32,923 nt of DNA from positions 1-32,923 of the forward strand of contig JAFRPW010000042.1 in the NCBI GenBank assembly GCA_017428945.1. Direction: 5' to 3'. Under the pieces are notes generated by a model. It made no database searches. It was not told the origin of the DNA and saw nothing but the letters and a program-made list of their open reading frames with translations. The position numbers and the translations under genes are program-made. Source of the stretch: Bacteroidales bacterium. GTDB lineage: Bacteria > Bacteroidota > Bacteroidia > Bacteroidales > UBA932. This document shows positions 1,369-16,472 of this stretch, piece after piece. How positions within the stretch are numbered: the first letter of the stretch is position 1; each line of letters begins with the position of its first letter.

Positions 1369-1387
1369 GCAAAGCACTTTTATTGAA

Positions 1388-1417
1388 GCGCCTTCCGTTT
1401 TGGGAGGCGTTTTTTTT
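1388..1417 (+). terminator. Intrinsic terminator after rpsC
   Basis: Stem GCGCCTTCC (1388-1396) pairs with GGGAGGCGT (1402-1410) with two G-U pairs and a 5-nt loop, followed by a run of eight T (1410-1417). It lies 20 bp after the rpsC stop, so transcription of the upstream S10 genes should end here instead of reading into rplP. Confidence 0.9.
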
Positions 1418-1456
1418 ATCCTCACCCGTCCACCCGGAAAGCGATGGCGAGCGCTT

Positions 1457-1861
1457 TCACAGTGATGCCATCATAAGCTCGGAACCGATTGCTTTGATAG
1501 CGCGCATTATCTTTCCGGTTGTCTTTTCTCCAGGATAAGCGGATCCGCTTTTGTATGCTCTCATTTTACTCTCGTTGATTCCGGCATACTCTGCAAACCT
1601 GCTTACATTAATGTAATCGAAGAAGTTGAAGAAAGAAGGTATGTCATAACGGTATTCAATAACAATATCTTCCCAAGCAGGTATAGCTTTTCCCTTTTGG
1701 CGCTGCTCTTCCAATGCTTCTTCTACGCTGGATATAAAATCGTTCTTAACCTCGTTCACAGACTCCCCGAAGCCGCCAAAATAACTATGCCCAATAGAAT
1801 CTTCGGAATAGCATGAGTATAAACCATCTTTACTCTTTTCTATTATCGCCAGTATCTTCAT
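1457..1861 (-). CDS. hicB: HicB-type antitoxin with C-terminal HTH
   Basis: Antitoxin of a HicAB pair: it should bind and block HicA and repress its own promoter. The 134-residue protein begins with a partial RNase-H-like HicB fold (MKILAIIEKSKDGLYSCY.., then a SIGHSYFGGFGESVNEVKND-like stretch near residues 22-41). It ends in a helix-turn-helix of the Xre/Cro kind (SRFAEYAGINESKMRAYKSG near residues 87-106). It starts 4 bp after the hicA stop, a standard toxin-first order. Base composition looks more AT-rich than the flanking ribosomal and envelope genes, in keeping with lateral gain. The family call rests on fold pattern, size and neighbour; the HTH is the clearest part. Confidence 0.85.
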   Translation of the reverse strand: MKILAIIEKSKDGLYSCYSEDSIGHSYFGGFGESVNEVKNDFISSVEEALEEQRQKGKAIPAWEDIVIEYRYDIPSFFNFFDYINVSRFAEYAGINESKMRAYKSGSAYPGEKTTGKIMRAIKAIGSELMMASL

Positions 1862-1865
1862 AGTC

Positions 1866-2057
1866 TTACAGTTTTATTCCTGCCTGTTTTAATATCGCCG
1901 AGCACGTGCCGTTGGCTATCTCCCTGGATTGATGTCTTGGTACTCGGAATTGAGCATTGCTGATAGGAGAGTACCAAACGTCGTGTCCTCTGGCATTTAC
2001 TTGTATCTCTTGGCAACCATATGCCCTTAACAGCCGCTTAAGTTCATTCGTTTTCAT
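1866..2057 (-). CDS. hicA: HicA-type mRNA interferase toxin
   Basis: Small dsRBD-like toxin that cleaves mRNA when not held by HicB. The 63-residue product starts MKTNELKRLLRAYGCQ and contains the family's N-terminal helix, the glycine plus catalytic histidine context (ARGHDVWY, residues about 22-29), and the conserved RVPRHQSREIANGT segment followed by ILKQAGI. An ATG 48 bp further upstream is in frame, but it would lie above the likely -7 box (2082 to 2075 on the minus strand) and inside the operator, so the start at 2057 is preferred. It is cotranscribed with hicB. Confidence 0.87.
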   Translation of the reverse strand: MKTNELKRLLRAYGCQEIQVNARGHDVWYSPISNAQFRVPRHQSREIANGTCSAILKQAGIKL

Positions 2058-2074
2058 AATAGCGGCTATTTGTG

Positions 2075-2105
2075 CAAAAGTAGCGAAATCGCTACTAATT
2101 TGCAA
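2075..2105 (-). promoter_or_regulatory. hicAB promoter with palindromic operator
   Basis: On the minus strand a TACTTTTG box (2082 to 2075) fits the TAnnTTTG -7 consensus, with a weak TTGC (2105 to 2102) about 19 bp upstream. A perfect 18-bp inverted repeat, AGTAGCGAAATCGCTACT (2079-2096), covers the -7/-33 spacer and overlaps the -7 box. It is the obvious binding site for the HTH of HicB, giving autorepression. The palindrome is seen directly; its use is inferred. Confidence 0.75.
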
Positions 2106-2129
2106 GTGTTTGTTCGAATAATAAACATA

Positions 2130-2168
2130 GTTGATGTATATTTGCGTTTGCTACAAACATACATCAAC
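2130..2168. promoter_or_regulatory. Nested inverted repeat with a promoter-like box
   Basis: GTTGATGTAT (2130-2139) and ATACATCAAC (2159-2168) are perfect inverted repeats. Inside them GTTTG (2146-2150) pairs with CAAAC (2154-2158). A TATATTTG box (2137-2144) overlaps the left arm and would fire to the right, with TTCG (2113-2116) 20 bp upstream. This could be an operator over a plus-strand promoter whose short transcript would end at the hairpin at 2193-2222. No protein gene follows on the plus strand, so the role is open. Confidence 0.45.
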
Positions 2169-2192
2169 TGATAACAAAAACGCTGAATCGTA

Positions 2193-2223
2193 AAAAAGAT
2201 TGTGTTGTATCACAATCTTTTTC
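2193..2223. terminator. Bidirectional hairpin terminator between tlpA-like gene and hicA
   Basis: AAAAAGATTGTG (2193-2204) pairs perfectly with CACAATCTTTTT (2211-2222) around a 6-nt loop. A-rich and T-rich flanks on both sides allow termination on either strand. It can stop minus-strand transcripts leaving the thioredoxin gene at 2284, and any plus-strand transcript started near 2150. Confidence 0.75.
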
Positions 2224-2283
2224 GGTTTTTTGCGTGTTTTTTAATGCTTTTTTACAGAAATAAAACTTTTTCTGAAGATCACA

Positions 2284-3078
2284 TCAGTCTTCCAGAGCCT
2301 CTTCAATGGCCTTGCCTATTGCCTCGCCGCGGAGATTCCTTTTCAGGATGGTGCCGTCAGGGCCGAAGAGAATGATGTGAGGGATGCCCTGGATGCCGTA
2401 TATCTCAGTAGGGATGCGCTGGGCGTCCACAATCTGGTTCCAGACTATGTTCTCTTCCTTGGCGGCCTGGATGGTGTCTTCCAGCTTGTCCCACACTGCT
2501 ACGGAAAGCATGTCGAACTTGTCTCCGTGGTATTTCTCATAAACGGCGCGGAGGTTGGGCATTTCCCTGCGGCAGGGACCGCACCAGCTGGCCCAGAAGT
2601 CTACAAGGACGTATTTTCCCTTGCCTATGAAGTCCGAGAACTTGACGCCGTTCACCTCGAAATCCGTAAACATCTGGCCTTCCGCCGTGCCCTTCTGGGC
2701 ATTCAGGGCAGCCTTTAGACCGTAAACAAAGGCGGAATCCTGGCCGTGGACGGGAGCGGTGAGCTTGTTCACATATTCGGCCAGGTCTTCGTCGTCAACC
2801 ATGCCATACAGATTCTTGAGGGCGGCAACGCCTACCTCGTTGTCCAGATTGGCCTTGAGTGCCTTGAGGTTGTATTCCTCTACCACGTCCACGATGGAGT
2901 CGGTATAAGCCTCCATGGCTTCCTGATTACCTTCCAGTGCGACTACGCCGTTACGGAATTCCTCCATCTTGGCCTGGTTCCACTCATTGAATTCTGCGAG
3001 CTTTTGCTCTACGGATTTGCTCTTGCAACCCACCATGCAAACCAGCACGGCGGCGACTAACAGTAAGTTCTTTTTCAT
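2284..3078 (-). CDS. TlpA-like thioredoxin-fold lipoprotein
   Basis: Predicted periplasm-facing lipoprotein that reduces or forms disulfides. Residues 1-18 form a lipoprotein signal peptide ending VCMVGC. Residues 20-135 are a helical, charged region without a family I recognise, in the place where many Bacteroidetes TlpA proteins carry DUF4369. Residues about 140-264 are a thioredoxin fold of the AhpC/TSA-TlpA type with the active site WASWCGPC (near 162-169) and the cis-proline loop GIQGIPHIILFGPDG. A TAnnTTTG box lies about 20 bp upstream of the ATG. It follows the large peptidase/propeller gene by 34 bp on the same strand, so readthrough is possible, but it probably has its own promoter. 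The substrate is unknown. Confidence 0.88.
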   Translation of the reverse strand: MKKNLLLVAAVLVCMVGCKSKSVEQKLAEFNEWNQAKMEEFRNGVVALEGNQEAMEAYTDSIVDVVEEYNLKALKANLDNEVGVAALKNLYGMVDDEDLAEYVNKLTAPVHGQDSAFVYGLKAALNAQKGTAEGQMFTDFEVNGVKFSDFIGKGKYVLVDFWASWCGPCRREMPNLRAVYEKYHGDKFDMLSVAVWDKLEDTIQAAKEENIVWNQIVDAQRIPTEIYGIQGIPHIILFGPDGTILKRNLRGEAIGKAIEEALED

Positions 3079-3097
3079 ATGTAATTCTTATAATATG

Positions 3098-3105
3098 CAA
3101 ATATA
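3098..3105 (-). promoter_or_regulatory. Promoter -7 box of the thioredoxin gene
   Basis: TATATTTG read on the minus strand (3105 to 3098) matches the TAnnTTTG consensus in the 34-bp gap before the ATG at 3078. No convincing TTTG -33 box is visible at the usual distance, so the call rests on the -7 box alone. Confidence 0.5.
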
Positions 3106-3112
3106 GTGTTTT

Positions 3113-6100
3113 TTACAATTCTGTGTTAGCTACAAACCCAACATATACCGGGCTCTTGAGGCCGGTGCTCTTGTACAGGTCTTCGGAGCCGCCGTTGTAC
3201 GCCACACGGACGCCCAGTTTCATGGTAGTGGAGAACATGAAGAGCTTCTCGAAACGAAAGACCAAGTCTGCTCCGGCGCTGTACAGGTACTGCATATCGT
3301 CTGCCGGCAGCAGCGAGAAGTCTGCAAAGGGATTAACCTCCATATTGCTGAAATAGATATATGGACTGAACGCCCTGTCTACATACAGCATGGGGAAAAC
3401 ATAGTCCATGGAGAACCGGGCAGATACCGGAGATAACAGCATGGAGGCACCTGCCCCGGATTTCTCGAAGCCCCTGGGCGACAGGTCCTCGAATCCCCTG
3501 GACCAGGTGTCTTCAGGTATGTAGTATCCAACCTTTATAAGGTCATCATTGACAGGGAAGGTATAATGCCATGCCTGTCCCTTGGCCTGTGCGGCAGCGG
3601 AGAGCTTGATTCCGTGCGTGGACATAAGGCCGGGCAGGTAGGTATAGGCCTTGGCATAGATGCCGGAGCCGATACCATCGTCAAATGGAGACAACACAAT
3701 TCGGAGTTCTCCTCCCACTCCTAACCGGGGAACAATCTGCGAAGGGGCGGTCTGGCGCCTGGTATCGGCGCTGACACTTGCCACCAGGGATTGATTCCGG
3801 AAAAAATCCCGGCCTTTCTTTCCGGTGGCCGTATTAGACCCTTCTTCAGTTACCCCGTCTTCTTTGAAGAATGCCATGCCTTCGCCGATGTAGTCGTTGC
3901 TATACTTCAGGGTGAGGCTTGGCTTGATGGTGGATTCCATTCCTCCGGAAGACAGGTTCAGGGGAACGGAAACGCCTATGGAACTGCCCACAAATAAGCT
4001 ACCCCTGGGTTTTACGCTTATGAACGTGGAATCCTTGGAAGGAATCCAGGCCCTGGAGATGGCGGCGCTCTGGCGGTCTCCTACATCAAGAGAGAAGTCA
4101 ATAACGGGATAAAGTCCGGAATATGTGAGGGTGGTATGGAAGCCTGCGGCCACCTTTTCCTCATCGAAGGGATCTGGATGGACGGAAACGCCCATTGAGC
4201 CGGCCACCGTCCCGGTAAGGTTCTGGAAGAAAGCCCTGGCGCCAAGGGTGGCGGTTTCGTATGTATATAGGTCTACGGAATTGCCGTTCTGCAGATTCAC
4301 ATACAGGGGCAACCAGGAGTGTATATGAAAGAAATTGGCAGGTTTGGAGTAAGCGGATTGCACAGGCGCATCAGTTGCAGCGGGCCTTTCCGCAAATTCC
4401 TTCTCCTGGGCGGAAAGGACATCGGCAATGGGGTAGGCAGAATAATCCGCCAGGGAAACCCTGCGGGAAAGAGGGCTTTCCACTGTGGCAAGGATGCTTC
4501 CGGCAGGCTCAAGGGCACTGAAGCACAGTACTCCGTCCATGAAGAACGGTGAAGATACGCCGTGACGGGTATTGGTCAGCTGTGTAAGGTTTCCCGGGGT
4601 ATATGAATAGATTTCGTTGGTACCGGTGCGGTCGCAGGTGAAATAAATGGCACCCTCATGGGAAACCAGGTTCTTTATCTTTACCGGGACGGCCGCCTCC
4701 AGGGTGCTTATCCCGGAGAAATCCGTCAGATACAGCCCCATGCCCTGGTCCGATATGCCAGTGAAGGCAACCCCGCTCCCCAGGAAAGCAACTTCCGTGA
4801 CCTGAAGCCCGTCAGGAGCGGTTATGGACCTTATTTCCTTTCCGTCCGATATATCCAGAAGGACGATCCTTCCGCCGCCTGTGACCGGATATTCCGCTGC
4901 GGCCAGGGCCTTCCCGTCCGGGGACACCGCCGGGTTAACATATCGGCCCGATGCAAGGTCACGGACCTTTTTGCCGCCGGCCTCAACAAAACGGATACGG
5001 GAGGTCTGGATCATTTCCCACCTGAGGTCCGGAACGCTCTCTGTCCAGTAGATGCAGTCCGTGTATGGGGAATAGGCCAGCCGGCTGTCGGCACTCATGG
5101 GACGGATTACCTTTACGCTGCCGTCCGGTAGAATCTGAACCATCTCCTGCTGCCTGTCCATGGCCGAACGGAGGGCGAATACGCGGCCGTCCTTTGTCTG
5201 CACGGCGCCCCTGAAACTGGTGAAGAACCGGCCTGCCGGCGCCAGATGGACCGGCTCCTGGAACGGGGCGCGGAGGGAATCGTCCCTGGCCCAGACGTCC
5301 TTGAAGCTTGCGGCAATCTCTGCCCAGGAGCCCTTTATCTTCTTGCCGGAGTACTTTTTCATTGTCTTCTGCAAGCCGTTGAAGGCAAAGGGGCTGGTGA
5401 GGTTCCAGAGGTAGTCGCTCATGAACATTGTGGCGTCATAGTTATACCTCATGCCGGCAACCGTCATGTAGCCTATCCTGTAATAATCCGGAGTATACCA
5501 CCTCTGTGAGCCATAGCGCCAGCGGTACCAGTCGCGCATGTCGCCGGTGGCGAAAGACATCCTGATATATGAAAGGAAGTCGGCCGTGCGGCCGCGGCCG
5601 GAATTGGTAAGTGCGGTTTCTGCAACCACGGCATCGCCCTCGAGCAGGGCCACATTCTCATACAGGGTACCGCTCAGAGTGAGTCCTATCTCGCCGAAAG
5701 GCCAGTACAGGTACTTCTTTAAACCGGTCCTGGTAAACTGATTCTGGGCTACATGCCTGTTCTCGTGGATTGCCAGAATCTTTTCCCACGGGACAGGGGG
5801 AAGTGACGCATATGCATCAGGGAAAGTGTATAAATCCATACGGCGCGGGGCCCATACCACGGCGCCGTTGGAAGTAGCTGCAAACGGGTGCAGGATTACC
5901 GGCATCGGGCTGCGGTAGTACTGGTTTGGAAGCATTCCCGCCGAGTTCCCCACCAGCGGCCGGAACTGCTCCAGATAAGCGGAATATACCCGTCCCAGGG
6001 AGTCCAGGCCCACGGGATAAATGACCTTATAGTTGGACGATGTAAGCGTTTCCCAATTGGTTGTAGCCTTCTCGCTTCCAAGCGAAGCAAACTGCGCGCG

Positions 6101-6154
6101 GCCCTGAAAACACGCTGCCATCAATATAGCCAATATGGCAAATGACTTTTTCAT
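3113..6154 (-). CDS. Secreted metallopeptidase-like / TolB-like propeller / beta-barrel protein
   Basis: A 1013-residue exported protein, no gene name recognised. Residues 1-20 are a signal peptide (cleavage after GRA, before QF). Residues about 30-300 contain an HExxH motif (HENRH, 130-134) followed by LLEGDAVVAE with E172 as a plausible third zinc ligand, the layout of gluzincin 'peptidase MA'-like domains. Residues about 310-590 carry TolB/PD40-like blades (NPAVSPDGKALAAAEY; FTCDRTGTNEIYSY followed by LTQLTN). From about 620 to the end alternating polar/aromatic strands rich in Tyr, Phe and Gly suggest an outer-membrane beta-barrel. The whole looks like a cell-surface protease or binding protein. 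It is divergent from uvrC, 47 bp apart, sharing a mirror-image promoter. The module reading is from motif inspection only; the barrel is the least certain. Confidence 0.75.
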   Translation of the reverse strand: MKKSFAILAILMAACFQGRAQFASLGSEKATTNWETLTSSNYKVIYPVGLDSLGRVYSAYLEQFRPLVGNSAGMLPNQYYRSPMPVILHPFAATSNGAVVWAPRRMDLYTFPDAYASLPPVPWEKILAIHENRHVAQNQFTRTGLKKYLYWPFGEIGLTLSGTLYENVALLEGDAVVAETALTNSGRGRTADFLSYIRMSFATGDMRDWYRWRYGSQRWYTPDYYRIGYMTVAGMRYNYDATMFMSDYLWNLTSPFAFNGLQKTMKKYSGKKIKGSWAEIAASFKDVWARDDSLRAPFQEPVHLAPAGRFFTSFRGAVQTKDGRVFALRSAMDRQQEMVQILPDGSVKVIRPMSADSRLAYSPYTDCIYWTESVPDLRWEMIQTSRIRFVEAGGKKVRDLASGRYVNPAVSPDGKALAAAEYPVTGGGRIVLLDISDGKEIRSITAPDGLQVTEVAFLGSGVAFTGISDQGMGLYLTDFSGISTLEAAVPVKIKNLVSHEGAIYFTCDRTGTNEIYSYTPGNLTQLTNTRHGVSSPFFMDGVLCFSALEPAGSILATVESPLSRRVSLADYSAYPIADVLSAQEKEFAERPAATDAPVQSAYSKPANFFHIHSWLPLYVNLQNGNSVDLYTYETATLGARAFFQNLTGTVAGSMGVSVHPDPFDEEKVAAGFHTTLTYSGLYPVIDFSLDVGDRQSAAISRAWIPSKDSTFISVKPRGSLFVGSSIGVSVPLNLSSGGMESTIKPSLTLKYSNDYIGEGMAFFKEDGVTEEGSNTATGKKGRDFFRNQSLVASVSADTRRQTAPSQIVPRLGVGGELRIVLSPFDDGIGSGIYAKAYTYLPGLMSTHGIKLSAAAQAKGQAWHYTFPVNDDLIKVGYYIPEDTWSRGFEDLSPRGFEKSGAGASMLLSPVSARFSMDYVFPMLYVDRAFSPYIYFSNMEVNPFADFSLLPADDMQYLYSAGADLVFRFEKLFMFSTTMKLGVRVAYNGGSEDLYKSTGLKSPVYVGFVANTEL

Positions 6155-6158
6155 GCCA

Positions 6159-6195
6159 TAAAGTTAGCAATAATACCGGAAAATGACTAACTTCG
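6159..6195. promoter_or_regulatory. Mirror-image divergent promoters of the peptidase gene and uvrC
   Basis: A perfect inverted repeat AAGTTAG (6161-6167) / CTAACTT (6187-6193) is separated by 19 bp. Rightward, TTAG (6164-6167) and TAACTTCG (6188-6195) are spaced 20 bp, like -33 and -7 boxes, and end 6 bp before the uvrC ATG. Leftward, the same sequence gives TTAG and TAACTTTA (6166 to 6159), ending 4 bp before the ATG at 6154. Each arm would be the -33 of one promoter and the -7 of the other. Both mRNAs would be leaderless or nearly so. Confidence 0.6.
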
Positions 6196-6201
6196 CCCGG
6201 A

Positions 6202-7995
6202 ATGACCGTCCGTGAAATAATAGCCCTCTTTCCCCATTCACCCGGCGTATACAGGTATTATGACGCCGAGGGAAAGGTTATCTATGTTGGTAAGGCCAAA
6301 GACCTTCACAAGAGGGTCGCGCAGTATTTTGTGCCGCCGGAGCGCCTTAACACCAAGACCCGCATCCTGGTCTCCAAGATTGCCGATGCCCAGTTCTCCG
6401 TGGTTGATTCCGAGGCCGATGCCCTTCTCCTGGAGAACAACCTCATTAAGCAGTACAAGCCCAAGTACAACATATTATTAAAGGACTCCAAGACCTATCC
6501 ATGGATATGTGTGACAGGGGAGGAGTTCCCCAGGGTGTTCATTACCCGCCGTATAGAAAAGGGCAAGGGCAACCGTTACTTTGGCCCGTATTCCAGCGTG
6601 ATGCACGCCAGGAACCTGGTGGACTTCTTCGGGGAGATGTACGCCCTTCGCACCTGTACGCTCAAAATAACCTCGGAGGCTATCCTGAGGGGGAAGTTCC
6701 GTCCCTGCCTCAACTTCCATATAGGCAAATGCAAGGCTCCGTGCGTTGGAAAGATATCCCGCGAGGAGTATGACGGATACATAGACGAGATTGTGCGTAT
6801 CCTCAGCGGACGGGGAAGCGAGGTGATAAAGCATTACAAGGCCCTGATGGCAGAGGCCGCAGAGCGCCTGGACTTTGAACAGGCCCAGGTGTACAAGGAG
6901 AAGCTCTCATCCCTGGAAAAACACTATGCAAAGAGCATCATAACCCAGGCGCGCGACACGGACGCCGATGTATTCTCCATGGTGTTCGACCTCAACGAAG
7001 CCTTCGGCAACTTCCTCAGGATCAGGAGCGGAGCAATCGTTCAGTCCCTGAACCTTGGCTTCAGGAGCCAGATAGAAGAGACCAGGGAGGCCATGCTGGC
7101 AACGTTCATTGGGGAAATTGAGGACAAGTTCGGGGAACTCTCGAAGGAAGTGATAGTCCCGTTCCTCCCGGACGTTGAGATTCCGGGAGTGGAGTTCAGG
7201 ATTCCGCAGAAAGGAGACAAGCTGGCTCTTCTGGAACTAAGTGCCAAGAACGCCAGGGAGTTCCACTTCAACTCCCTAAAGCAGCGTGAGCACACTGACC
7301 CGGACCAGTATAAGATGTCCGTGATGGAAGATCTCCGAAAGGCTCTTGGAATGACGGAACTGCCCCGTCACATGGAGTGCTTCGACAACTCCAACATCCA
7401 GGGCACCAATCCGGTTGCCTCCTGCGTGGTTTTCCGCAATGCAGAGCCCTCAAAGGCCGATTACCGACGCTTCAAGATAAAGACCGTCATAGGCGCGAAC
7501 GACTATGCTTCAATGAAGGAGGTGGTAAACCGCCGCTACTCCCGCATGCTGGCCGAGGCTCCGGACGATCTGCCTCAGCTGATTGTCATAGACGGCGGCA
7601 AGGGACAGCTGGACTTTGCGCACCAGGCCCTTGCAGAACTTGGAATCCTGGACCGGGTAACGGTTATAGGCCTTGCAAAGCGCCTGGAGGAGGTTATCCG
7701 CGTTGGCGATCCATACCCTTTGTTCATAGACAGGAACTCCCAGGCACTGAAAGTGCTCCAGCAGATACGTGACGAGGCCCACCGCTTTGGCATAACCTTC
7801 CACCGGAACCTCAGGTCAAAGGCCGCCATCCAGAGCGCCCTCCGTGAGATAAAAGGAGTTGGAGAGAAGACGGAGCAGCGTCTTATCCTGCATTACGGAT
7901 CCGTTGCCCGCATAGCCGCCGCTCCGCTGGAAGAACTCTCTTCCCTTGTAGGTGCAGAACTGGCGGTAAAGATACATGATTATTTGAATCAATGA
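6202..7995 (+). CDS. uvrC: UvrABC excinuclease subunit C
   Basis: UvrC makes the 3' and 5' incisions around DNA lesions in nucleotide excision repair. The 597-residue protein has the N-terminal GIY-YIG nuclease (SPGVYRYYD, VIYVGKAKDL, residues 12-36), a UvrB-binding UVR motif (residues about 220-245, RLDFEQAQVYKEKL), the RNase H-like 5' nuclease with ECFDNSNIQGTNPVAS near 393-408 and VIDGGKGQL near 463-471, and two C-terminal helix-hairpin-helix motifs (IKGVGEKT). Length is normal. The start is fixed by the conserved N-terminus and lies only 6 bp after a -7-like box. Its stop overlaps the pnuC start (ATGA). Confidence 0.97.
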   Translation: MTVREIIALFPHSPGVYRYYDAEGKVIYVGKAKDLHKRVAQYFVPPERLNTKTRILVSKIADAQFSVVDSEADALLLENNLIKQYKPKYNILLKDSKTYPWICVTGEEFPRVFITRRIEKGKGNRYFGPYSSVMHARNLVDFFGEMYALRTCTLKITSEAILRGKFRPCLNFHIGKCKAPCVGKISREEYDGYIDEIVRILSGRGSEVIKHYKALMAEAAERLDFEQAQVYKEKLSSLEKHYAKSIITQARDTDADVFSMVFDLNEAFGNFLRIRSGAIVQSLNLGFRSQIEETREAMLATFIGEIEDKFGELSKEVIVPFLPDVEIPGVEFRIPQKGDKLALLELSAKNAREFHFNSLKQREHTDPDQYKMSVMEDLRKALGMTELPRHMECFDNSNIQGTNPVASCVVFRNAEPSKADYRRFKIKTVIGANDYASMKEVVNRRYSRMLAEAPDDLPQLIVIDGGKGQLDFAHQALAELGILDRVTVIGLAKRLEEVIRVGDPYPLFIDRNSQALKVLQQIRDEAHRFGITFHRNLRSKAAIQSALREIKGVGEKTEQRLILHYGSVARIAAAPLEELSSLVGAELAVKIHDYLNQ

Positions 7996-8759
7996 ACGAC
8001 AAGAAATTCAACAAATGGTTCAGCGCGTTCATCCTTGTGGGGATGACGGTTGTAACGTTTATTGTTACTGCGATCAAACTTTCTGGCGCCGGCAGCGGAG
8101 AGCATTTCTGGCTCATCCTGGCCGCTTTTGGCTCCCTTATGGGAGTCTTGGCAACGGTTTGCTCCGCCAATGGCTGGATAATTACTTTCCTGTTCGGTTT
8201 CCTGGATGTCTCCATCTACGGCATATCCTGCTGGGTGAACTGGCACGACGGCGGCTCCGGGCTGGGAAATGCCCTGTTGCATTTTGTCTATTTTGTACCC
8301 ATGCAGCTTGTGGGGTATATCCAGTGGAAGAGGCGCGGGGCAAAGGCCTCCACCCAGGTGAAGGCACGGAGGCTCTCCCGCGGCATGCGCTGGGCGTGGC
8401 TGGGAATAACTGTGGCGGCTACGGCTGTGCTTTATATTATACTGCTCCGCTTCGACCGCTCCGCCGCCCAGGGCTTCCTTCGCATTGCCGTGCTTCTGGA
8501 CGTGATTCCGCTTGTGTGCAATGTAATCGGACAGCTCCTGATGTCTACGGCGTACATGGAGCAGTGGATATTCTGGATAGCCGTCAATATCTTCTCCATC
8601 TGCCTATGGGTCACTTCCGACAAGTCCTTTGCGCCGGTTTATATAGTGAAATATGTATTCTATCTGATTAACTCCGTCAACGGTCTCAGGATATGGATTA
8701 ATCTGAGCCGGGAAGAGATTCCCACTCAGGCCGGGGATGACAGGTTTTTGGATAATTAA
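7992..8759 (+). CDS. pnuC: PnuC-family vitamin transporter
   Basis: PnuC proteins carry nicotinamide riboside, or related vitamins such as thiamine in some Bacteroidetes homologues, by facilitated diffusion. The 255-residue product has about seven hydrophobic segments and the family's NWHDGGSGLGNALLHFVYFV followed by MQLVGYIQWKR, including the Trp-rich pore region. It overlaps uvrC by 4 bp (ATGA), so the two are translationally coupled, a pairing with no obvious shared pathway. No TPP riboswitch or thiamine gene is nearby, so the substrate cannot be told. It ends 80 bp before acpP. Confidence 0.88.
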   Translation: MNDKKFNKWFSAFILVGMTVVTFIVTAIKLSGAGSGEHFWLILAAFGSLMGVLATVCSANGWIITFLFGFLDVSIYGISCWVNWHDGGSGLGNALLHFVYFVPMQLVGYIQWKRRGAKASTQVKARRLSRGMRWAWLGITVAATAVLYIILLRFDRSAAQGFLRIAVLLDVIPLVCNVIGQLLMSTAYMEQWIFWIAVNIFSICLWVTSDKSFAPVYIVKYVFYLINSVNGLRIWINLSREEIPTQAGDDRFLDN

Positions 8760-9082: not shown

Positions 9083-9094
9083 TAACAGTAAAAT

Positions 9095-9129: not shown

Positions 9130-9156
9130 GTTAATATGCATTACAGCTAATATAGT

Positions 9157-9191: not shown

Positions 9192-9193
9192 AT

Positions 9194-10870
9194 TTATTTC
9201 TTGGATACCGCGAATGTGATGCGGAACATAGGCTTTCTGCCTGCGGCTTCCGGGCCGCTGAGGATGGCACGGTAATAGCGGTCCTTGTCCAGTTCCGTAT
9301 TGGTTGTGTACTTGGTCTGGTTTGCTGCGGCAAGCTGCTGGGCCAGCATGGCATACGTGTAGTAGTTGCTGTAGCCGCCATAACCTCCGTAGCCCCCGTA
9401 ACCGCCATATCCGTAGCCGCCATAACCACCGTACCCGCCGCCGTATAGACTGTTATAGAACATGGCGTACGTGAGCTGCTGCAGGTACTGGTTCTGGGTG
9501 TTGTCCGTGGCCTGGGCAACCTGCTCCGTGAAGATGGTGAGGAGCCATATGTCCGCGTCCGTTGCGGAGTCAAGGTCTGTCCTCTTGAGTATTTCCTGGA
9601 CGTGGTAGCTGATGTCCGGGCAGTAGACCAGGTTGGAGCGGTCTATGTCTCCCTGGTTCTCCGTTGATACGGATGCATCCGTAAGGCCGGCAAACTGAAT
9701 GGATTCCTTGCCGCCGTCACCTGTGACCGTGTGACGGATGGTGGGGCTCAGGATGGAAGGGAAGTACTTCATGTCCAGGTAGTTGGCGGGCATTTCAAAG
9801 GGGAGGACAATGGTTGCCTTGGTAACTATTGCATCGCTTATGCTGCCGCCTTTTGCCTCTATGGCCGCTTTTGCATGGCTGTAAAGTTCTTTTGCGGAAA
9901 TTACCGGCTTTACGCCGCTTCCGCCCTCAACCAGGAGCTGTGCGCCCGCTGCGCCTTCAGGATAGGTGTGGGTGGTGCGGTTGAATGCAAACTGGTAGAA
10001 GCGGGATCCGTTGTCTATGGATGTGTCCTCGTCCAGGAAGCTCATTTCTCCGGGGACAAAGACTACCGTCAGGGTGGTGTCCTTTCCGGCGACCTCGTCG
10101 TTGGTGTAACTGAGGACGGCCAGGTTGTTGTTGACGTAGAGCTGGCCGTCGGACACGCCCAGGCACGAGAGTTCGAACAGGTTGATGCGTCCGCCGTTGC
10201 CGGAGGGCTCGTCCGTCCTGAGGTGGATGCCGGGGAGCTTGGCCGTGTATTCCTTGTAGCGGGCGGCCTTGGCGTCATCGTCCCACTCCCTGTTGATTAT
10301 TACGCCGTCCGGGGCGAGAGCCTTTATTCCGTCAAGATACTTCTGGGCGAAGGCCTTGGTGAAGGAGAAACGGAGCGGGCCGCTGCCGTTGTAAACGGGT
10401 ATGCCGTCGGTGATGAGATCTTCCGAATGGGTTATGACCGTGTTGGAGGCCGACTTTTCCGGATCCAGCGCTGCGGTGAGTTCAGTTACGTAAATATTCT
10501 GAAGTATGCGGGCCTGCGAGTCATCGGCACAGGAGATGCTGTCGGAGGCAAAGTAGATGTTGAGGCTTTTTGCCTTGGGATTGGTTCCGAGGTCCAGGGT
10601 GTCCAGCACGGGGACCAGGGTGAGCGCGCTTTCGCGGGTGGAGAGGCCGAAGACATCGTCCCTGACCGCGCCTATGACAATGCGGGAGGAGGAGTAGCCG
10701 GAGAGGTCCGTGGGCCTCTTCATCATTATATCGGTTAGCGGGAACTCTTCCGTATATGTGTCATAAAGGAGGCCTTTGTCCACAAGGCCGCTTCCAAGAC
10801 TGTTGTCCACTTTTATGCATGCGGAGGCGGCAATGGCTGCGGCAGCGCACGCGAGGGTGAGTTTTCTCAT
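9194..10870 (-). CDS. DUF4270 lipoprotein with a Gly-Tyr repeat insert
   Basis: Bacteroidetes-specific secreted protein of unknown function, usually found beside the short GT5-like protein, as here. The N-terminus is a lipoprotein signal (MRKLTLACAAAAIAASAC, Cys at 18). The middle has the family's features: loss of a shared DSISCADDSQARI-like region near 110-122, and repeated beta-strand segments naming columns such as TLVPVLDTLDLGTNP. Near residues 474-502 sits a low-complexity run of GGY/GYG units (9370-9450) before the last 55 residues. The start ATG overlaps the stop of the upstream gene (ATGA), so the two are translationally coupled. Calling it DUF4270 rests on size, lipoprotein signal and this conserved pairing. 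Confidence 0.8.
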   Translation of the reverse strand: MRKLTLACAAAAIAASACIKVDNSLGSGLVDKGLLYDTYTEEFPLTDIMMKRPTDLSGYSSSRIVIGAVRDDVFGLSTRESALTLVPVLDTLDLGTNPKAKSLNIYFASDSISCADDSQARILQNIYVTELTAALDPEKSASNTVITHSEDLITDGIPVYNGSGPLRFSFTKAFAQKYLDGIKALAPDGVIINREWDDDAKAARYKEYTAKLPGIHLRTDEPSGNGGRINLFELSCLGVSDGQLYVNNNLAVLSYTNDEVAGKDTTLTVVFVPGEMSFLDEDTSIDNGSRFYQFAFNRTTHTYPEGAAGAQLLVEGGSGVKPVISAKELYSHAKAAIEAKGGSISDAIVTKATIVLPFEMPANYLDMKYFPSILSPTIRHTVTGDGGKESIQFAGLTDASVSTENQGDIDRSNLVYCPDISYHVQEILKRTDLDSATDADIWLLTIFTEQVAQATDNTQNQYLQQLTYAMFYNSLYGGGYGGYGGYGYGGYGGYGGYGGYSNYYTYAMLAQQLAAANQTKYTTNTELDKDRYYRAILSGPEAAGRKPMFRITFAVSKK

Positions 10871-11703
10871 TTCAGAATCTGATCGTAAAAAGCGTTGTAG
10901 CTGTCCATGTAGCTGCCGTCAGCAATGGCGGCGGGGTCATAGTCCAGCATGGGCACTCCCAGGCCCTTGCACCAGGCGGTGATCTCCGGCGAAATGCCGC
11001 CACTGCCCAGGATTATGCCGTCAGAGTACTGTGCGGCTATTTTTGCAAGGAACGTGCCGTTTGTGCTCTCTCCTTCCGGAAGATCCCGGCTTTTGATGCC
11101 TCCGTAGAGGATGGTGTCCCTGAATCCGGGGGCAAGGTCTTCAGAGGGGATGTCGTCAAACAGGGAGAGGACTACTTTGGAGCCGGCGAAGATGGGGTCG
11201 TCCTTGTACGCTTTTTTGAGGTAGAGGGGGAGGACCGATGTAATCCAGCCGGAGCAGTGAATCACGTCCGGGGCCCAGCGGAGCTTCTTCACTGTCTCCA
11301 GGACGCCGCGGGCGAAGAAGATAGCCCTTTCACCGTTGTCTGCGAAGAAGGTGCCATCGTCATCGCGGTAGATCTGTTTGCGGCGGAAATAGTCCTCGTT
11401 ATCTATGAAATATACCTGTATTCGGGCCGATGAAATGGACGCGACCTTGATTACGAGGGGACGGTCCACGTCCGAAATGATGATGTTCATTCCGGAGAGG
11501 CGGATGACCTCGTGGAGCTGGTTCTTCCTTTCGTTGATGCAGCCGTAGCGGGGCATGAAGGCACGGATTTCCCGTTTGCGCTCCTGTATGCCCTGCGGGA
11601 GCTGGCGGCAGATGGTGGCGATGTCCGTATCAGGGAGATAGGGGGACATTTCCGAGTTGACGAAAAGAATCTTCTTTGCCGAATCTTCCATTGTTAAAAT
11701 CAT
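10867..11703 (-). CDS. Short GT5-like (glycogen synthase N-domain) protein, probably not catalytic
   Basis: Resembles only the N-terminal Rossmann domain of GT5 glycogen/starch synthases: KKILFVNSEMSPYLPD at the start and a WAPDVIHCSGWITSVLPLYL segment equivalent to the DxxHxHDW region. At 278 residues it is little more than half of a real synthase and lacks the C-terminal GT-B half. The ADP-glucose-binding KxGGL motif expected after the first strand is replaced by YLPDTDIATICRQLP. Such short proteins beside DUF4270 genes are common in Bacteroidales and are usually annotated 'glycogen synthase', which is probably wrong in function. An alternative start is the Met at 11691 (MEDSAKK), which looks more like the conserved beginning. 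A minus-strand TAAATTTG box (11719 to 11712) lies just upstream. Confidence 0.8.
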   Translation of the reverse strand: MILTMEDSAKKILFVNSEMSPYLPDTDIATICRQLPQGIQERKREIRAFMPRYGCINERKNQLHEVIRLSGMNIIISDVDRPLVIKVASISSARIQVYFIDNEDYFRRKQIYRDDDGTFFADNGERAIFFARGVLETVKKLRWAPDVIHCSGWITSVLPLYLKKAYKDDPIFAGSKVVLSLFDDIPSEDLAPGFRDTILYGGIKSRDLPEGESTNGTFLAKIAAQYSDGIILGSGGISPEITAWCKGLGVPMLDYDPAAIADGSYMDSYNAFYDQILK

Positions 11704-11711
11704 TTAGCTTA

Positions 11712-11719
11712 CAAATTTA
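11712..11719 (-). promoter_or_regulatory. -7 box for the GT5-like / DUF4270 operon
   Basis: TAAATTTG on the minus strand (11719 to 11712) matches TAnnTTTG, 8 bp before the ATG at 11703 or 20 bp before that at 11691. No clear -33 box. It is arranged back to back with the ftsX promoter. Confidence 0.5.
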
Positions 11720-11728
11720 CGAATTTTT

Positions 11729-11759
11729 TTTGACTATTCCGCCCATTTCAGTAACTTTG
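11729..11759 (+). promoter_or_regulatory. ftsX operon promoter
   Basis: TTTG (11729-11732), 19 bp, TAACTTTG (11752-11759): a full consensus match, with the ATG of ftsX 19 bp further on. It should drive the run ftsX, DUF3098, uppP, LpxH-like, DUF4294, whose genes all touch or overlap. Confidence 0.85.
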
Positions 11760-11778
11760 GGCCGAAATTAGGTGTGTT

Positions 11779-12660
11779 ATGCCCTCGGTAAACAGTTCTG
11801 TAACAAAACGCCGTCTGGCAAGTTCCTGGATATCTACGGTGATAAGCCTGTCGCTGGTTCTCCTCCTGGTGGGAATCGGTTCCATGCTGCTGGTCAACGC
11901 CCGGGCGGTGAGCGATTACTTCAAGGAGAACCTTCAGGTGGAGGTTCTCATGAAGGACTATGTGGACGAGGAAGAGGCATCGGCCTATGAAAAAGGGCTT
12001 CTGGCCATTCCCGGAGTCCGCGCCACGCGCCTTGTGTCCAGGGACGAGGGCATGGAGGAGATGTCCCAGATGCTGGGCCGGGACTTTCTGGACGTGTTTG
12101 AGGCCGCTCCCGTGCCGGTTTCCGTAGAGGTGAGCCTGGAAGCGGCGTATGTATCGGCAGACAGCCTGGCGGTAATACAGGAATTACTGGCCGATTCCCC
12201 GCTGGTGGACGAGGTGGTCTACCAGACATCCCTTGTGGAGGCGCTGAACCAGAACCTGGGAAAGATTACCCTGGGGCTGGCCGTGATGGTTGCCGTGCTG
12301 CTTTTCATTTCCTTCGTCCTCATGGCAAATACCGTCCGGCTGGACCTTTTCTCCCGCCGCTTCTCCATACACACCATGCAGCTTGTGGGAGCGACGCGCC
12401 GGTTCATCAGGGCGCCTTTCGTGGGAAGGGCTGCGCTGCAGGGTCTGTTTGCGGCGCTCATAGCCATCCTGCTTCTGCTGGGAGGCCTGTTCTTCCTGAA
12501 GGGAGAGTTCTCGCAGCTGTTCTCCATCTTCACGCTGGAGTCCCTGCTGGAGGTTATGGGGATAATGCTGGTTTCCGGCGTATTTATCTGCTGTGTAAGT
12601 ACTTACTTTATGGTTAACCGCCTTGTGGGGTATAATCGTGACCTTATATATTCATATTGA
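11779..12660 (+). CDS. ftsX: Cell division protein FtsX
   Basis: Membrane subunit of the FtsEX ABC-type complex, which controls peptidoglycan hydrolases at the septum. The 293-residue protein has a cytoplasmic N-terminus, a first membrane helix (about residues 17-38), an extracytoplasmic domain of about 120 residues, and three further helices at the C-terminus with the FtsX/MacB-like sequence MQLVGATRRFIRAPF (about 203-217). ftsE is not adjacent, as is usual in Bacteroidetes. Its stop codon shares one base with the start of the next gene. Confidence 0.93.
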   Translation: MPSVNSSVTKRRLASSWISTVISLSLVLLLVGIGSMLLVNARAVSDYFKENLQVEVLMKDYVDEEEASAYEKGLLAIPGVRATRLVSRDEGMEEMSQMLGRDFLDVFEAAPVPVSVEVSLEAAYVSADSLAVIQELLADSPLVDEVVYQTSLVEALNQNLGKITLGLAVMVAVLLFISFVLMANTVRLDLFSRRFSIHTMQLVGATRRFIRAPFVGRAALQGLFAALIAILLLLGGLFFLKGEFSQLFSIFTLESLLEVMGIMLVSGVFICCVSTYFMVNRLVGYNRDLIYSY

Positions 12661-12905
12661 TGGCAAAGAATTCAGACAAGATGGCCCTGTCGGCCAAAAG
12701 TATAAAGCTGATGCTGGCCGGCCTGCTTGTAATGGCGGCCGGATTCCTGCTCCTGAGCGGAGGCGGATCGGACGACCCCAACGTGTTCAACTATGCGATG
12801 TTCGATGCAAGGCGCCTGGTTGCGGCTCCAATAGTGATAATTGCCGGAATCGTGGTGGAGGTGATAGCCATCATGGGCAGGTTCAAGGATAAGGAGGAGG
12901 AATAG
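12660..12905 (+). CDS. DUF3098 small membrane protein
   Basis: Bacteroidetes-specific two-helix membrane protein of unknown function found between ftsX and uppP in many genomes of the group. The 81-residue product has helices at about 14-33 and 55-73 and a charged tail ending KDKEEE. The ATG at 12660 overlaps the ftsX stop (TGATG). Its last codons (AAGGAGGAGG, 12892-12901) form a strong ribosome-binding site for uppP. Confidence 0.85.
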   Translation: MAKNSDKMALSAKSIKLMLAGLLVMAAGFLLLSGGGSDDPNVFNYAMFDARRLVAAPIVIIAGIVVEVIAIMGRFKDKEEE

Positions 12906-12908
12906 GCT

Positions 12909-13730
12909 ATGGAATGGTGGCAGGCTTTTATCCTTGGCATAGTCCAGGGTCTCACGGAATTTCTCCCGGTGTCTTCTTCCGGGCACCTTATGATATTCAA
13001 GGAGCTTGTCGGCGCAGACGCGGAAGGCTTCCTTGACTTTACCGTAACCGTTCACTTTGCAACGGTACTGGCAACGCTGGTTGTGTTCTGGAACGCCATC
13101 TGGAAACTTCTGAAGGGCTTTTTCAAGTTCAAGTACAACGACGAGACGGATTATATCTGCAAGATCCTGGTCTCCTGTATTCCAGTGGCTCTTGTGGGCT
13201 TCCTGTTCAAGGATTTCGTGGACGGGCTGTTCGGGGAGTCGCTGTCGCTTGTTGCTAATGGGCTTATTATAACTGCAAGCCTTCTTTTAATCTCGGACAA
13301 TATAGGGAAGAGGATTAAACTTGTTTATTCTGAAAAGAAGTACCGCAACGGCATATCATACTGGCAGGCGTTTGTAGTGGGTATTGCACAGGCTTTCGCG
13401 GTGTGCCCGGGCATCTCCCGCAGCGGAAGCACCATCGCCACCGGTCTCATTTCAGGTGTAGAGCGCGGCGCCATGGCGCAGTTCTCCTTCCTGATGGTCC
13501 TTATTCCAATAATTGGGGAGCAGGGTCTGGACCTTTTGAAGATGGTCACCGGGGCAGAGGCATTTGGTGCCGGGGTTGGCCCCCTGGCCCTTGTGCTTGG
13601 CTTTGTGGCGGCTTTCCTTAGCGGTCTTTTCGCCTGCAAGGTGATGATTGCCATCGTCCGTAAGGCCAAGCTCACATGGTTTGCACTTTACTGTCTGCTG
13701 GTGGCAATAGCGCTGTTTATATTTGCGTGA
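12909..13730 (+). CDS. uppP: Undecaprenyl-diphosphate phosphatase (UppP/BacA)
   Basis: Integral membrane enzyme that recycles undecaprenyl pyrophosphate to the monophosphate carrier for cell-wall synthesis. The 273-residue protein shows both family signatures: GLTEFLPVSSSGHL (residues about 15-28) and PGISRSGSTIATGL (about 166-179). Eight or so membrane segments are visible. It lies 3 bp after the DUF3098 gene, and its stop overlaps the GTG start of the phosphatase gene downstream. Confidence 0.96.
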   Translation: MEWWQAFILGIVQGLTEFLPVSSSGHLMIFKELVGADAEGFLDFTVTVHFATVLATLVVFWNAIWKLLKGFFKFKYNDETDYICKILVSCIPVALVGFLFKDFVDGLFGESLSLVANGLIITASLLLISDNIGKRIKLVYSEKKYRNGISYWQAFVVGIAQAFAVCPGISRSGSTIATGLISGVERGAMAQFSFLMVLIPIIGEQGLDLLKMVTGAEAFGAGVGPLALVLGFVAAFLSGLFACKVMIAIVRKAKLTWFALYCLLVAIALFIFA

Positions 13731-14464
13731 GTAGGCACCTGACATACTTCGTTTCCGACGTCCATCTGGGTCTCCGGGTGCAGGATCCCGCACGCCGGGA
13801 AGCCCGATTTGTGGAGTTTCTGAAAGGCATTCCAGCCGCAGAGACGGAAGCCCTGTATCTCCTTGGCGATATCTGGGATTTCTGGTATGAGTACAAGGAC
13901 GTGGTTCCCAAGGGTTACGTGCGCGTTTTCGCAGCACTTCTGGAACTCATGGACGCCGGCGTCAAGGTTTACTTCTTCCCTGGCAACCACGACATCTGGG
14001 CCTACAGCTATTTCCGTGAACTTGGAATGACCGTTCTGGAACAGCCGTATGTTACCGTTATCGGCGGCAGGCGCTTCTGCCTTGGCCACGGAGACGGCCT
14101 TGGGCCCGGAGATTACGGCTACAAGCTCATGAAATGGGCTTTCCACAACCGTTTTCTGCAGAGGTGTTTTTCCGCTCTTCACCCGCGCATTGCGTTTTCC
14201 CTTGGCAATGGCTGGAGCCGTAAGTCCCGCCTTGCCAAGAACGTAAGCTATTTCTTCCGCGGCAAGGACGAGCCCCTGTACAAGTGGTGCGCAAAATTCA
14301 AGGGCGGGGCCGATTTCTTTATCTTCGGCCACTACCATGCCCGCGTGGACATGCCCGTAGAGCCCTCCGGACGCCTGCTTGTGATGGAAGACTGGATTAC
14401 CAGCCCCAACTGGCTGGTGTATGACGCTCTGGCAAACTCTTTGCAGGTAGAACCGTCGAAATGA
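13727..14464 (+). CDS. LpxH-like UDP-2,3-diacylglucosamine diphosphatase
   Basis: Calcineurin-like metallophosphoesterase, by family the step making lipid X in lipid A synthesis. All metal-binding motifs are present: SDVHLG at the start, GDIWDFW, GNHDIW, GHGDG and GHYHAR. A GTG at 13727, overlapping the uppP stop (GTGA), is the likely start, giving 245 residues beginning VSRHLTYFVSDVHLG. A start at 13676 would run 55 bp into uppP and adds residues with no family match. Assignment to the LpxH role, not another phosphoesterase, rests on the pattern and the envelope-gene context. Confidence 0.85.
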   Translation: MSRHLTYFVSDVHLGLRVQDPARREARFVEFLKGIPAAETEALYLLGDIWDFWYEYKDVVPKGYVRVFAALLELMDAGVKVYFFPGNHDIWAYSYFRELGMTVLEQPYVTVIGGRRFCLGHGDGLGPGDYGYKLMKWAFHNRFLQRCFSALHPRIAFSLGNGWSRKSRLAKNVSYFFRGKDEPLYKWCAKFKGGADFFIFGHYHARVDMPVEPSGRLLVMEDWITSPNWLVYDALANSLQVEPSK

Positions 14465-15207
14465 CAAGACAGAGTCTTAATATCCTGCTGTTGACGCTGC
14501 TTATGATTTGTGCTCCCGTAGATGCGGGTGCGCAGGGGCACGTGCGCAAAGCCATGGAAAGGGCACGCGAGAAAGAGCAGATGATGGCGGCAAAGAAAGC
14601 CGCCCAGGAGAATGTTCCCCAGGGCGAGTGGCTCCGGATGAAGGTGGAAAACGGGGATACCATGTACTTTGACAAGATTCCGCCCGTGTGGATATTCGGC
14701 CGGGGCTCCCGCAGCAGCGAGAAGGAGTGGAGAAAGTACTACAAACTGGTCTACCGCTTTGCCAGGGTGTATCCGTATGCAGAGGCATCAGGAGGCCTCC
14801 GTCACATCGTAGACAGCACAATTGCGGCAAACAACTACAACAGGTTCCAAAGGGAGCAATATATAAACAAGGTGCAGAAAGACCTGTTCAAGGACTTCGA
14901 GGGCGCCCTCCGCCACATGACCATCACCCAGGGAGCCCTTCTCCTCAAACTCATAGACCGTGAAACCGGCATGCCGCCGTATGCGGTGATCAAAGAGTAC
15001 AAAAGCGGCGCAGCAGCCGGCTTCTGGCAGGCTGTGGCAAAACTATTTGAGAACGACCTCAAAAGCGAATACGATCCGGAAGGAGAAGACCGCGATATAG
15101 AAGAACTGGTCCAAATCTGGAAGGCCGGGGCCTTCAAGAATCTCTACTGGTCCGTCTTCTGGGAAGACCCTCCGGAGATAGAGGTCCCGGAAAAATACTT
15201 CAGATAA
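14461..15207 (+). CDS. DUF4294 secreted protein
   Basis: Bacteroidetes-specific protein of unknown function. The N-terminus is a signal peptide (residues 1-24, about SLNILLLTLLMICAPVDAGA). The mature part is helical and basic, with the family's conserved YKLVYRFARVYPYA (residues about 91-104) and QGALLLKLIDRETG (about 157-170) followed by AFWQ/WFWQ-like AGFWQAVAKLF. The start overlaps the stop of the LpxH-like gene (ATGA). It is the last gene of the ftsX operon, with a hairpin 4 bp after its stop. Confidence 0.83.
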   Translation: MTRQSLNILLLTLLMICAPVDAGAQGHVRKAMERAREKEQMMAAKKAAQENVPQGEWLRMKVENGDTMYFDKIPPVWIFGRGSRSSEKEWRKYYKLVYRFARVYPYAEASGGLRHIVDSTIAANNYNRFQREQYINKVQKDLFKDFEGALRHMTITQGALLLKLIDRETGMPPYAVIKEYKSGAAAGFWQAVAKLFENDLKSEYDPEGEDRDIEELVQIWKAGAFKNLYWSVFWEDPPEIEVPEKYFR

Positions 15208-15210
15208 AAC

Positions 15211-15245
15211 CAAAGCCGGTCCCGAAGAAAACGGGGCCGGCTTTG
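15211..15245 (+). terminator. Hairpin terminator after the DUF4294 gene
   Basis: CAAAGCCGGTCCC (15211-15223) pairs with GGGGCCGGCTTTG (15233-15245) over 13 bp with one G-U pair. There is no long T run after it, so it may act by another mode or only protect the 3' end. Confidence 0.65.
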
Positions 15246-15265
15246 CTGAATAATCGTATCAATAC

Positions 15266-15490
15266 TTATTGTTCCTGATGGACCAGAACAACCTTGGTTA
15301 TGGTGACCAACATGCCAAGCATACTCATTTCGTTGGCATAGCCGTTAACGGCCAGTACATCATCGTAGGAAAGCCTGTATGTGACCGAACCGCTGCCGTA
15401 AACATATACATCTGTGGCCCCGTCATTCCGGTATGTCTTATGCTTTGCACTGCAAGTTGCAGAACCGGATGTGGTTACAGACGATAATTT
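15266..15490 (-). pseudogene. Minus-strand gene fragment, C-terminal piece
   Basis: An open frame of 74 codons between an upstream stop (15491-15493) and TAA (15266-15268) has no plausible start codon near its beginning. Its sequence (for example YRNDGATDVYVYGSGSVTYR, LSYDDVLAVNGYANE, then LGMLVTITKVVLVHQEQ) reads like a real beta-rich protein, not a chance frame. It abuts the AraC fragment on the other strand. I do not recognise the family. It is probably the tail of a gene cut by a rearrangement. Confidence 0.5.
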
Positions 15491-15653
15491 TCATCCGTTT
15501 GCCGATGTCTACCTCTTCCACACGGAAGACCCGGAAATGGTCCGCGCGGACGTGGCTGAAGCCTCCGGCTTCGCCTCCCGCACCGCCTTCCTCCGCACCT
15601 TCAAGGCCCAGACCGGCCTCACTCCCACGGAGTGGAAGGCGCAGATATTATAA
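15487..15653 (+). pseudogene. AraC-family regulator remnant (last HTH only)
   Basis: The peptide DVAEASGFASRTAFLRTFKA followed by QTGLTPTEWKAQIL is the second helix-turn-helix of an AraC/XylS DNA-binding domain, ending at TAA (15651-15653). The first HTH and the ligand domain are missing, and the upstream in-frame sequence belongs to the antisense fragment. About 50 residues remain of a protein usually near 290. A decayed or truncated gene. Confidence 0.7.
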
Positions 15654-15663
15654 TAATAAGGTA

Positions 15664-15753
15664 GCCGTCCCTGAAAATGTCCTTTTTTAGGGACGGCGAC
15701 TTGTTTTTGCCCGGTTCGTCCCTGAAAACGGGCGTTTTTGCGGACGGCGGGAC
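15664..15753. repeat. Two copies of a GTCCCTGAAAA hairpin repeat
   Basis: Copy 1 (15666-15700) and copy 2 (15717-15753) share CGTCCCTGAAAA, then a variable GT/GC-rich segment, a T5-T6 run and GGACGGCG. They start 51 bp apart. Copy 1 folds as GCCGTCCCT (15664-15672) / AGGGACGGC (15689-15697). Neither is in a gene. They look like members of a dispersed intergenic repeat family, lying in the debris between DUF4294 and rplP. Confidence 0.6.
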
Positions 15754-15914
15754 TCCCGGAGGGATGGGCGGTGCTGCAGTGCGGCAGAATGGAGATAACC
15801 TCCGGTCGAAAAGTGGGCAAACTTTTTTTCAACACTGAGCGTAACTTGCGGAAAAACCGGATAGTTAGGTGTCAAAAAGCGCGGTCGAAAATGTTTAAAA
15901 AAAGTGTAAAAAAG

Positions 15915-15945
15915 TTTGGCGGTTCGGAATTTTTTTGTAACTTTG
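15915..15945 (+). promoter_or_regulatory. Promoter restarting the ribosomal cluster before rplP
   Basis: TTTG (15915-15918), 19 bp, TAACTTTG (15938-15945): a full consensus match, with A- and T-tracts upstream (15890-15913) that could act as an UP element. The leader to the rplP ATG at 16033 is about 80 nt. It gives rplP-rplQ their own transcription start, needed because the S10 operon is cut after rpsC. Confidence 0.88.
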
Positions 15946-16032
15946 CAATCCCCAAATTGGAGCAAAAAGCACCCAACCAGCTGAGTTTCAATGAGTTAGG
16001 GACTAAATGGAAATTATTTAAACATTAAAGCA

Positions 16033-16455: not shown

Positions 16456-16472
16456 TCTAAGGAGGAAAAGCA

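Follow-up and report, generated by a model that had tools for sequence, protein, structure and literature searches.

The stretch of DNA analyzed here (the window) is an entire contig, C38, of 32,923 bp, from a Bacteroidales bin of 2.6 Mb in 47 contigs. It carries two parts of the str-S10-spc-alpha ribosomal protein cluster, one ending with rpsC and the other starting with rplP, which lie 14,664 bp apart instead of side by side. It is very probable that this gap is one of two old breaks in the cluster, which would now be run as three separate transcription units. The segment rplC to rpsC would have been parted from its neighbors at both ends, between rpsJ and rplC and between rpsC and rplP, already in the common ancestor of at least 15 genera that form a clade within one Bacteroidales family. 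The three units would be str-rpsJ, rplC-rplD-rplW-rplB-rpsS-rplV-rpsC, and rplP through rplQ, and the last two would have gained promoters and structured 5′ leaders.

Two junctions missing across fifteen genera

In the window, both rpsC and rplP were intact, with scores exceeding the NCBIfam cut-offs, and the spc and alpha operons were contiguous and in standard order. We located the two genes in relatives and computed their distance in the 169 genomes having both, genomes without either being excluded. They were adjacent in none of the 135 genomes from the window's genus (g1) and 14 other genera of the family, and in 33 of the 34 genomes outside these split genera, which represent six further genera of the family and 23 other families of the order. 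Both genes were found on the same contig in 34 of the 135 split genomes, always at least 9.8 kb apart. Within g1, adjacency was seen in 0 of 42 genomes, and 20 had both genes on one contig; the spacing was 9.8–19.3 kb, around housekeeping genes, in 18 of these, the exceptions being G016 (505 kb, opposite strands) and G184 (112 kb, reversed order). The 14 other split genera (adjacency 0/93, both genes on one contig in 14) showed spacings from 21 kb up to hundreds of kb, including 441, 274, and 155 kb in the single-contig genomes G063, G070, and G130. Six genera of the same family (g31, g32, g33, g44, g45, and g48) had the genes 30–109 bp apart in 11/11 genomes, and other families of the order had them 24–100 bp apart in 22/23, with the two genes of G047 on different contigs.

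A panel of public loci around rpsC, namely the best 80 of a longer list, overlaps the 169-genome set and is therefore not independent of it. Here, 47 loci extended 600 bp or more past rpsC without any rplP in the available sequence, 31 had rplP adjacent, and two (L110 and L126) had too little sequence. Loci without rplP came mostly from rumen and gut Bacteroidales bins, including Candidatus Coprenecus merdigallinarum, and those with adjacent rplP included Parabacteroides, Dysgonomonas, Prolixibacter, and Paludibacter. The split group would fit the GTDB family UBA932, in which Cryptobacteroides is the big genus. Across the class, in a sample of which the window's genome was not part, adjacency was found in 136 of 140 genomes with both genes. 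The exceptions were G401, whose rpsC is at a contig end; G384 and G417, from one genus of family f60, with no rplP in the sequence read past rpsC and an intact rpsJ-rplC..rpsC; and G352 (family f29), with 10 kb past rpsC devoid of rplP, four other f29 genomes having the genes adjacent. The separate breaks in G384/G417 and G352 indicate that the rpsC|rplP junction was broken more than once in the class, and suggest that it is a recurrent weak point.

A first-pass annotation, made from the window alone, had reported the interruption between rpsC and rplP and suggested that it is an established arrangement. Both statements hold, the latter in view of the unit's own terminator and promoter signals (see below) and of the break common to 15 genera. 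It had also advised checking the spacing in relatives. The gap proved real, but the same gap recurs across the 15 genera, and the rearrangement is thus an old common state, not one peculiar to this genome as had been supposed; the annotation itself had listed such a finding among those that would refute it. Moreover, the second break lay beyond what that annotation could see.

This second break lies between rpsJ and rplC. Among unsplit genomes with both rpsJ and rpsC, rpsJ adjoined rplC, 3.1–4.0 kb before rpsC, in 30 of 33, the other three having the genes on different contigs. In the split clade, rpsJ and rpsC shared a contig in 26 of 123 genomes and were each time at least 9.6 kb apart. The window's genome had rpsJ at C22:21724-22026, followed by a tRNA-Met gene and by no rplC within the 2.2 kb read; the rplC of the bin was seen on contig C30, which may belong to a second genome in the bin. 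None of 20 rpsJ fragments contained rplC, including that of G085 (g49); this genome yielded neither rpsC nor rplP and is outside the following count. A tRNA-Met(CAU) gene lay 3′ of rpsJ, on the same strand and at about 15–370 bp, in 24 of the 27 split-clade genomes read, the window's own included at a distance of about 75 bp. The exceptions were G073 (g38, with 0.65 kb readable after rpsJ), G083 (g47), and G076 (g41). ARAGORN found only one tRNA gene, a tRNA-Asn in G067, in nine unsplit cluster loci. Incidentally, we noticed a tRNA-Gly and a tRNA-Leu gene about 2–3 kb upstream of rplC in G095 (g42, L316) and G130 (g35, L318), respectively, one genome per genus and not a general feature.

In a phylogeny built from nine ribosomal proteins (1396 columns, LG+G4, 60 tips), the split tips, 48 of 48, formed a single clade that lies among the family's unsplit genera; the split entries G000b, G006, G008, G021, and G136 had been left out, as more than four of their nine genes were missing. 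The split clade together with g33 and g48 had support 100, the family node had 74, and the earliest branch within the split clade was g38 with g47.

Signals and leaders at the new ends

The first-pass annotation had placed a terminator after rpsC at 1388-1417. We found a hairpin at 1385-1413 with a T-run to about 1417, in agreement with it. Scanning positions 1200-2300 on both strands gave four terminator-like sites, two of them overlapping at 1385-1417, versus 1.1 on average in shuffles. Downstream of rpsC, a terminator-like hairpin was present in 50/53 split versus 0/12 unsplit entries, loci with fewer than 100 nt after rpsC not being scored. Among the 50, the matches of G115 and G177, 81 bp away, were weak. 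As for the three misses, the detector passed over strong hairpins in G029 and G162, whereas in G077 none was seen by eye. After rpsJ, a weak match was obtained in only two of seven split genomes checked, and the end of the str-rpsJ unit stays putative.

The primary promoter of Bacteroidota consists of a −33 TTTG and a −7 TAnnTTTG element, the −33 element often being weak, according to the available part of a published account (PMC6847099). The full-consensus promoter that had been annotated before rplP was confirmed as an exact match to TTTG-N19-TAACTTTG. The window contained four such matches versus 0.28 expected, and 0 of 100 shuffles reached four. Of 91 split genomes, 67 had the full motif within 300 bp before rplP, versus a mean of 0.7 after simple shuffling, and 89 had the −7 element alone. 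In the unsplit genomes, the full motif and the −7 element were each found in 2/12, and both full matches lay inside rpsC. Before rplC, 24/24 split sequences had the −7 element and 13/24 the full motif; six unsplit rpsJ-rplC gaps of the family had neither. Incidentally, GTC(G/A)AAAA preceded the −33 element in 75 of 91 split regions (15884-15891 in the window), a raw count with no control for chance or position. The promoter and terminator signals are presumably in use.

Both sets of leaders folded better than shuffles. The rplC leaders had a mean folding z of −2.28 (n = 24 sequences, with G130 counted twice and with G019 and G030 excluded because their start was mis-set). Their predicted mRNA begins with a small hairpin (e.g., CCCGC..GCGGG) followed by an A/U-rich tail, and a few paired changes were seen in this hairpin by eye. 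The rplP leaders, 43–163 nt long, had a mean z of −1.73 (n = 90), 71% of them below −1; G335 had no recognized leader. In g1, a stretch of about 54 nt was constant in length while much of its sequence varied, and CCCAACCAGCTGA was identical in 25 of 63 rplP leaders. The RNAalifold consensus was weak (−12.8 for 30 selected sequences and −3.5 for 59), four short g1 leaders being left out of the alignment. Rfam gave no gathering match in the window and one chance-level match in 15800-16100. The idea that the rplP leader copies the S8 site of 16S rRNA was dropped, as bases expected to be important vary among leaders. The leaders may stabilize or regulate their mRNAs. A further possibility, which we hold to be rather unlikely, is that, once the S10 operon was broken, each of the two orphaned units acquired a 5′ RNA leader to make up for a lost operon-wide feedback.

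Table 1. Positions of genes and signals in the window
Feature	Position	Strand	Basis or remark
rpsS, 3′ part	1..170	+	contig starts within gene; aligned to end of complete rpsS on G000:C30
rplV (L22)	190..603	+	TIGR01044 above cut-off
rpsC (S3), final gene of rplC..rpsC unit	607..1368	+	TIGR01009, 271 bits
Putative intrinsic terminator 3′ of rpsC	1385..1417	+	hairpin and T-run scan
134-aa open reading frame (ORF) without family, neighbor of HicA-like gene	within 1457..2105	-	family scan
HicA-like toxin gene	1866..2105	-	PF07927, 43 bits
Thioredoxin-like gene	2284..3078	-	family scan
1013-aa ORF	3113..6154	-	no family above cut-off
uvrC, pnuC	within 2284..8759	+	family scan
acpP	8840..9082	+	NF002151 above cut-off
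558-aa ORF without family; glgA-like gene	within 9194..15207	both -	NCBIfam/Pfam scans
ftsX-like, DUF3098, uppP-like, lpxH-like, DUF4294 (14461..15207)	within 9194..15207		NCBIfam/Pfam scans
Predicted promoter of rplP unit, TTTG-N19-TAACTTTG	15915..15945	+	exact motif match
5′ leader of rplP unit, predicted 5′ hairpin	15950..16032	+	start inferred from −7 element
rplP, first gene of unit	16033..16455	+	NCBIfam above cut-off
rplP-rpmC-rpsQ-rplN-rplX-rplE-rpsN-rpsH-rplF-rplR-rpsE-rpmD-rplO-secY-map-infA-rpsM-rpsK-rpsD-rpoA-rplQ	16033..26518	+	family scans; no interruption

New junctions and rival accounts of the split

Parts of a block ftsX-DUF3098-uppP-(lpxH)-DUF4294 were found upstream of rplP in nine genera (g1, g28, g30, g34, g35, g36, g40, g41, and g46), often with the glgA-like gene and the 558-aa gene, and in some genomes inverted or with intervening genes. 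DUF4294 was also upstream of rplP in g42. The glgA-, ftsX-, uppP-, and lpxH-like names are best matches under the curated NCBIfam cut-offs. Within 9 kb before rplP, the block was not seen in g26, g29, g38, g39, and g47, where the ORF caller was partly blind. ORFs were called by codon-usage score and genes were still missed in some genomes, so that absence of the block is weak evidence. Downstream of rpsC, we found what we take to be a serine-hydrolase-like gene (c29) and/or shikimate genes in g28, g35, and g40, with c29 also in g42 and g46, and presumed murA, murB, and pepP homologues in G061 (g26, L164) and G232 (g40, L202).

These junctions bear on the question of which split state came first. 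The 10–20 kb spacing of g1 might be the original one, made by two inserted stretches, with wider dispersal coming later; we give this account somewhat less than an even chance. In G008, rpsJ, rplC..rpsC, and rplP still follow one another on a single strand, separated by 7.7 and 10.2 kb, G061 and G232 have same-strand rpsC-rplP gaps of 21 kb, and rpsJ precedes rplP by 38–94 kb on one strand in genomes of g28, g29, g30, g34, and g40 and in G162 (g1). However, the sister genus g41 has its two halves on different contigs, none of the 14 measurable genomes of other split genera except G061 and G232 comes as close as 21 kb, and the intervening genes differ, rpsC being followed by the presumed murA, murB, and pepP homologues in g26 and G232 and by the serine-hydrolase-like and/or shikimate genes in g28, g35, and g40.

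Several observations weigh against our main reading. The two genes were on different contigs in 101 of the 135 split genomes, in which the break is visible only where the flanks were read. Support for the split clade was 90, not 100. The terminator detector also fired on 24 of 106 shuffled segments. The leader structures did not align into one fixed set of pairs, and covariation in fixed columns was weak. Lastly, g38 and g47 lacked the rpsJ-tRNA-Met and ftsX-block junctions (with 0.65 kb readable after rpsJ in g38) and had the weakest rplC hairpins (z of −0.36 and −0.71, respectively). The absence of the common junctions and these weak hairpins leave some room for two separate events in the family, with g38/g47 split independently of the remaining split genera, the more so as the rpsC|rplP junction was also broken in f60 and, in one assembly, in G352. 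Yet, the tree joins g38 and g47 to the other split genera in the clade of support 90, and both breaks are present in them, and we consider two independent splits improbable.

It is very unlikely that a mobile element or island was inserted between rpsC and rplP. The HicA-like gene adjoins rpsC, and the interval exceeds that of the closest relative, G019, by about 4.5 kb, but no transposase, integrase, or phage family was found among the scanned ORFs of the window (NCBIfam and Pfam, and PADLOC for three ORFs), the named genes are mostly housekeeping ones, and in many relatives tens to hundreds of kb separate the two halves. No tRNA gene was found anywhere in the window. An ancestral mobile element, since lost, is possible. 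The HicA-like gene and its 134-aa neighbor lie outside the stretches that align with G019. So does the 1013-aa ORF, for which NCBIfam, Pfam, and PADLOC all gave no family above cut-off. Compared with G019, the orientation of the thioredoxin-like gene is reversed, and so is that of DUF4294.

Judging by its genes, the interval is not a mobile element, as the first-pass annotation had argued. That annotation had preferred an inversion or translocation over an insertion; any of the three may have caused the split. A single simple inversion, joining the aroB side to the uppP side, is unsupported: aroB and uppP, which in split genomes lie near rpsC and rplP, respectively, were on different contigs in 10/10 unsplit genomes of the family, although most of these assemblies are fragmented and, in four, the uppP match was weak and may be a paralogue.

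Finally, we considered whether the gap could be an artefact of assembly or binning. The window starts inside rpsS, and the bin has a second rplV-rpsC region (G000:C30:75441-76211, L064) with 88.6% DNA identity to positions 1-1354 over 1357 bp. The second rpsC has 96% protein identity, and C30 ends about 200 bp past it. The bin yielded a single rplP and a single rpsJ, and it probably mixes two related genomes. A chimera, named by the first-pass annotation as an alternative, is ruled out by the relatives that carry both separated genes on one contig (33 other genomes, three of them single-contig), and with both rpsC copies of the bin followed by a terminator-like hairpin and not by rplP, we see next to no chance of an artefact.

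Meaning and comparison with known systems

Few gene orders in bacteria are as conserved as that of this cluster, and in Proteobacteria co-regulation is believed to maintain it, according to the available part of one study (PMC8046335). A large clade that has long lost two of its junctions makes this idea testable, and its expression, dosage, and ribosome assembly can be compared directly with those of the family's unsplit genera. If our reading of the gene order is right, a balanced supply of ribosomal proteins would no longer depend on co-transcription in these organisms. Should the leaders indeed replace the lost feedback, the clade would be a natural experiment in rebuilding ribosomal protein balance after loss of co-transcription. 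The carriers form a large group of uncultured gut bacteria, and caution is needed, as rpsC-rplP or rpsJ-rplC synteny is unsuited to judging the assembly quality of such metagenome bins.

Our literature search, which subscription papers mostly fell outside, yielded no account of this double break; an earlier description may exist. Rearranged S10 clusters are known elsewhere, and the combination of breaks at rpsJ|rplC and rpsC|rplP appears new in the literature searched. As for the leaders, structured 5′ leaders also precede ribosomal protein genes in the case of L13 and S4 of Bacteroidia (PMC7247131, available part); the portion of its table at hand lists no Bacteroidota leader before rplP or rplC.

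Compared with the standard Bacteroidales str-S10-spc-alpha cluster, as in Parabacteroides, Dysgonomonas, and Prolixibacter, the split clade has the same genes, the same order within rplC..rpsC and within rplP..rplQ, and an unbroken spc-alpha part. It differs in lacking the rpsJ|rplC and rpsC|rplP junctions and in having pieces with their own promoter or terminator signals. A survey of 204 species of Proteobacteria, Acidobacteria, Firmicutes, and Tenericutes likewise describes, in its available part, rare insertions and relocations in an otherwise conserved cluster, but 75 of its 115 rearrangements separate operons and leave them intact, unlike here. The ribosomal operons of Aquifex aeolicus are also dispersed, while two related genera keep theirs compact. 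As far as the available text of that study goes (PMC3879981), however, the breaks of A. aeolicus fall mainly between operons, with str in two pieces, whereas in the split clade the cuts in the S10 operon flank rplC..rpsC on both sides, and this in 15 genera.

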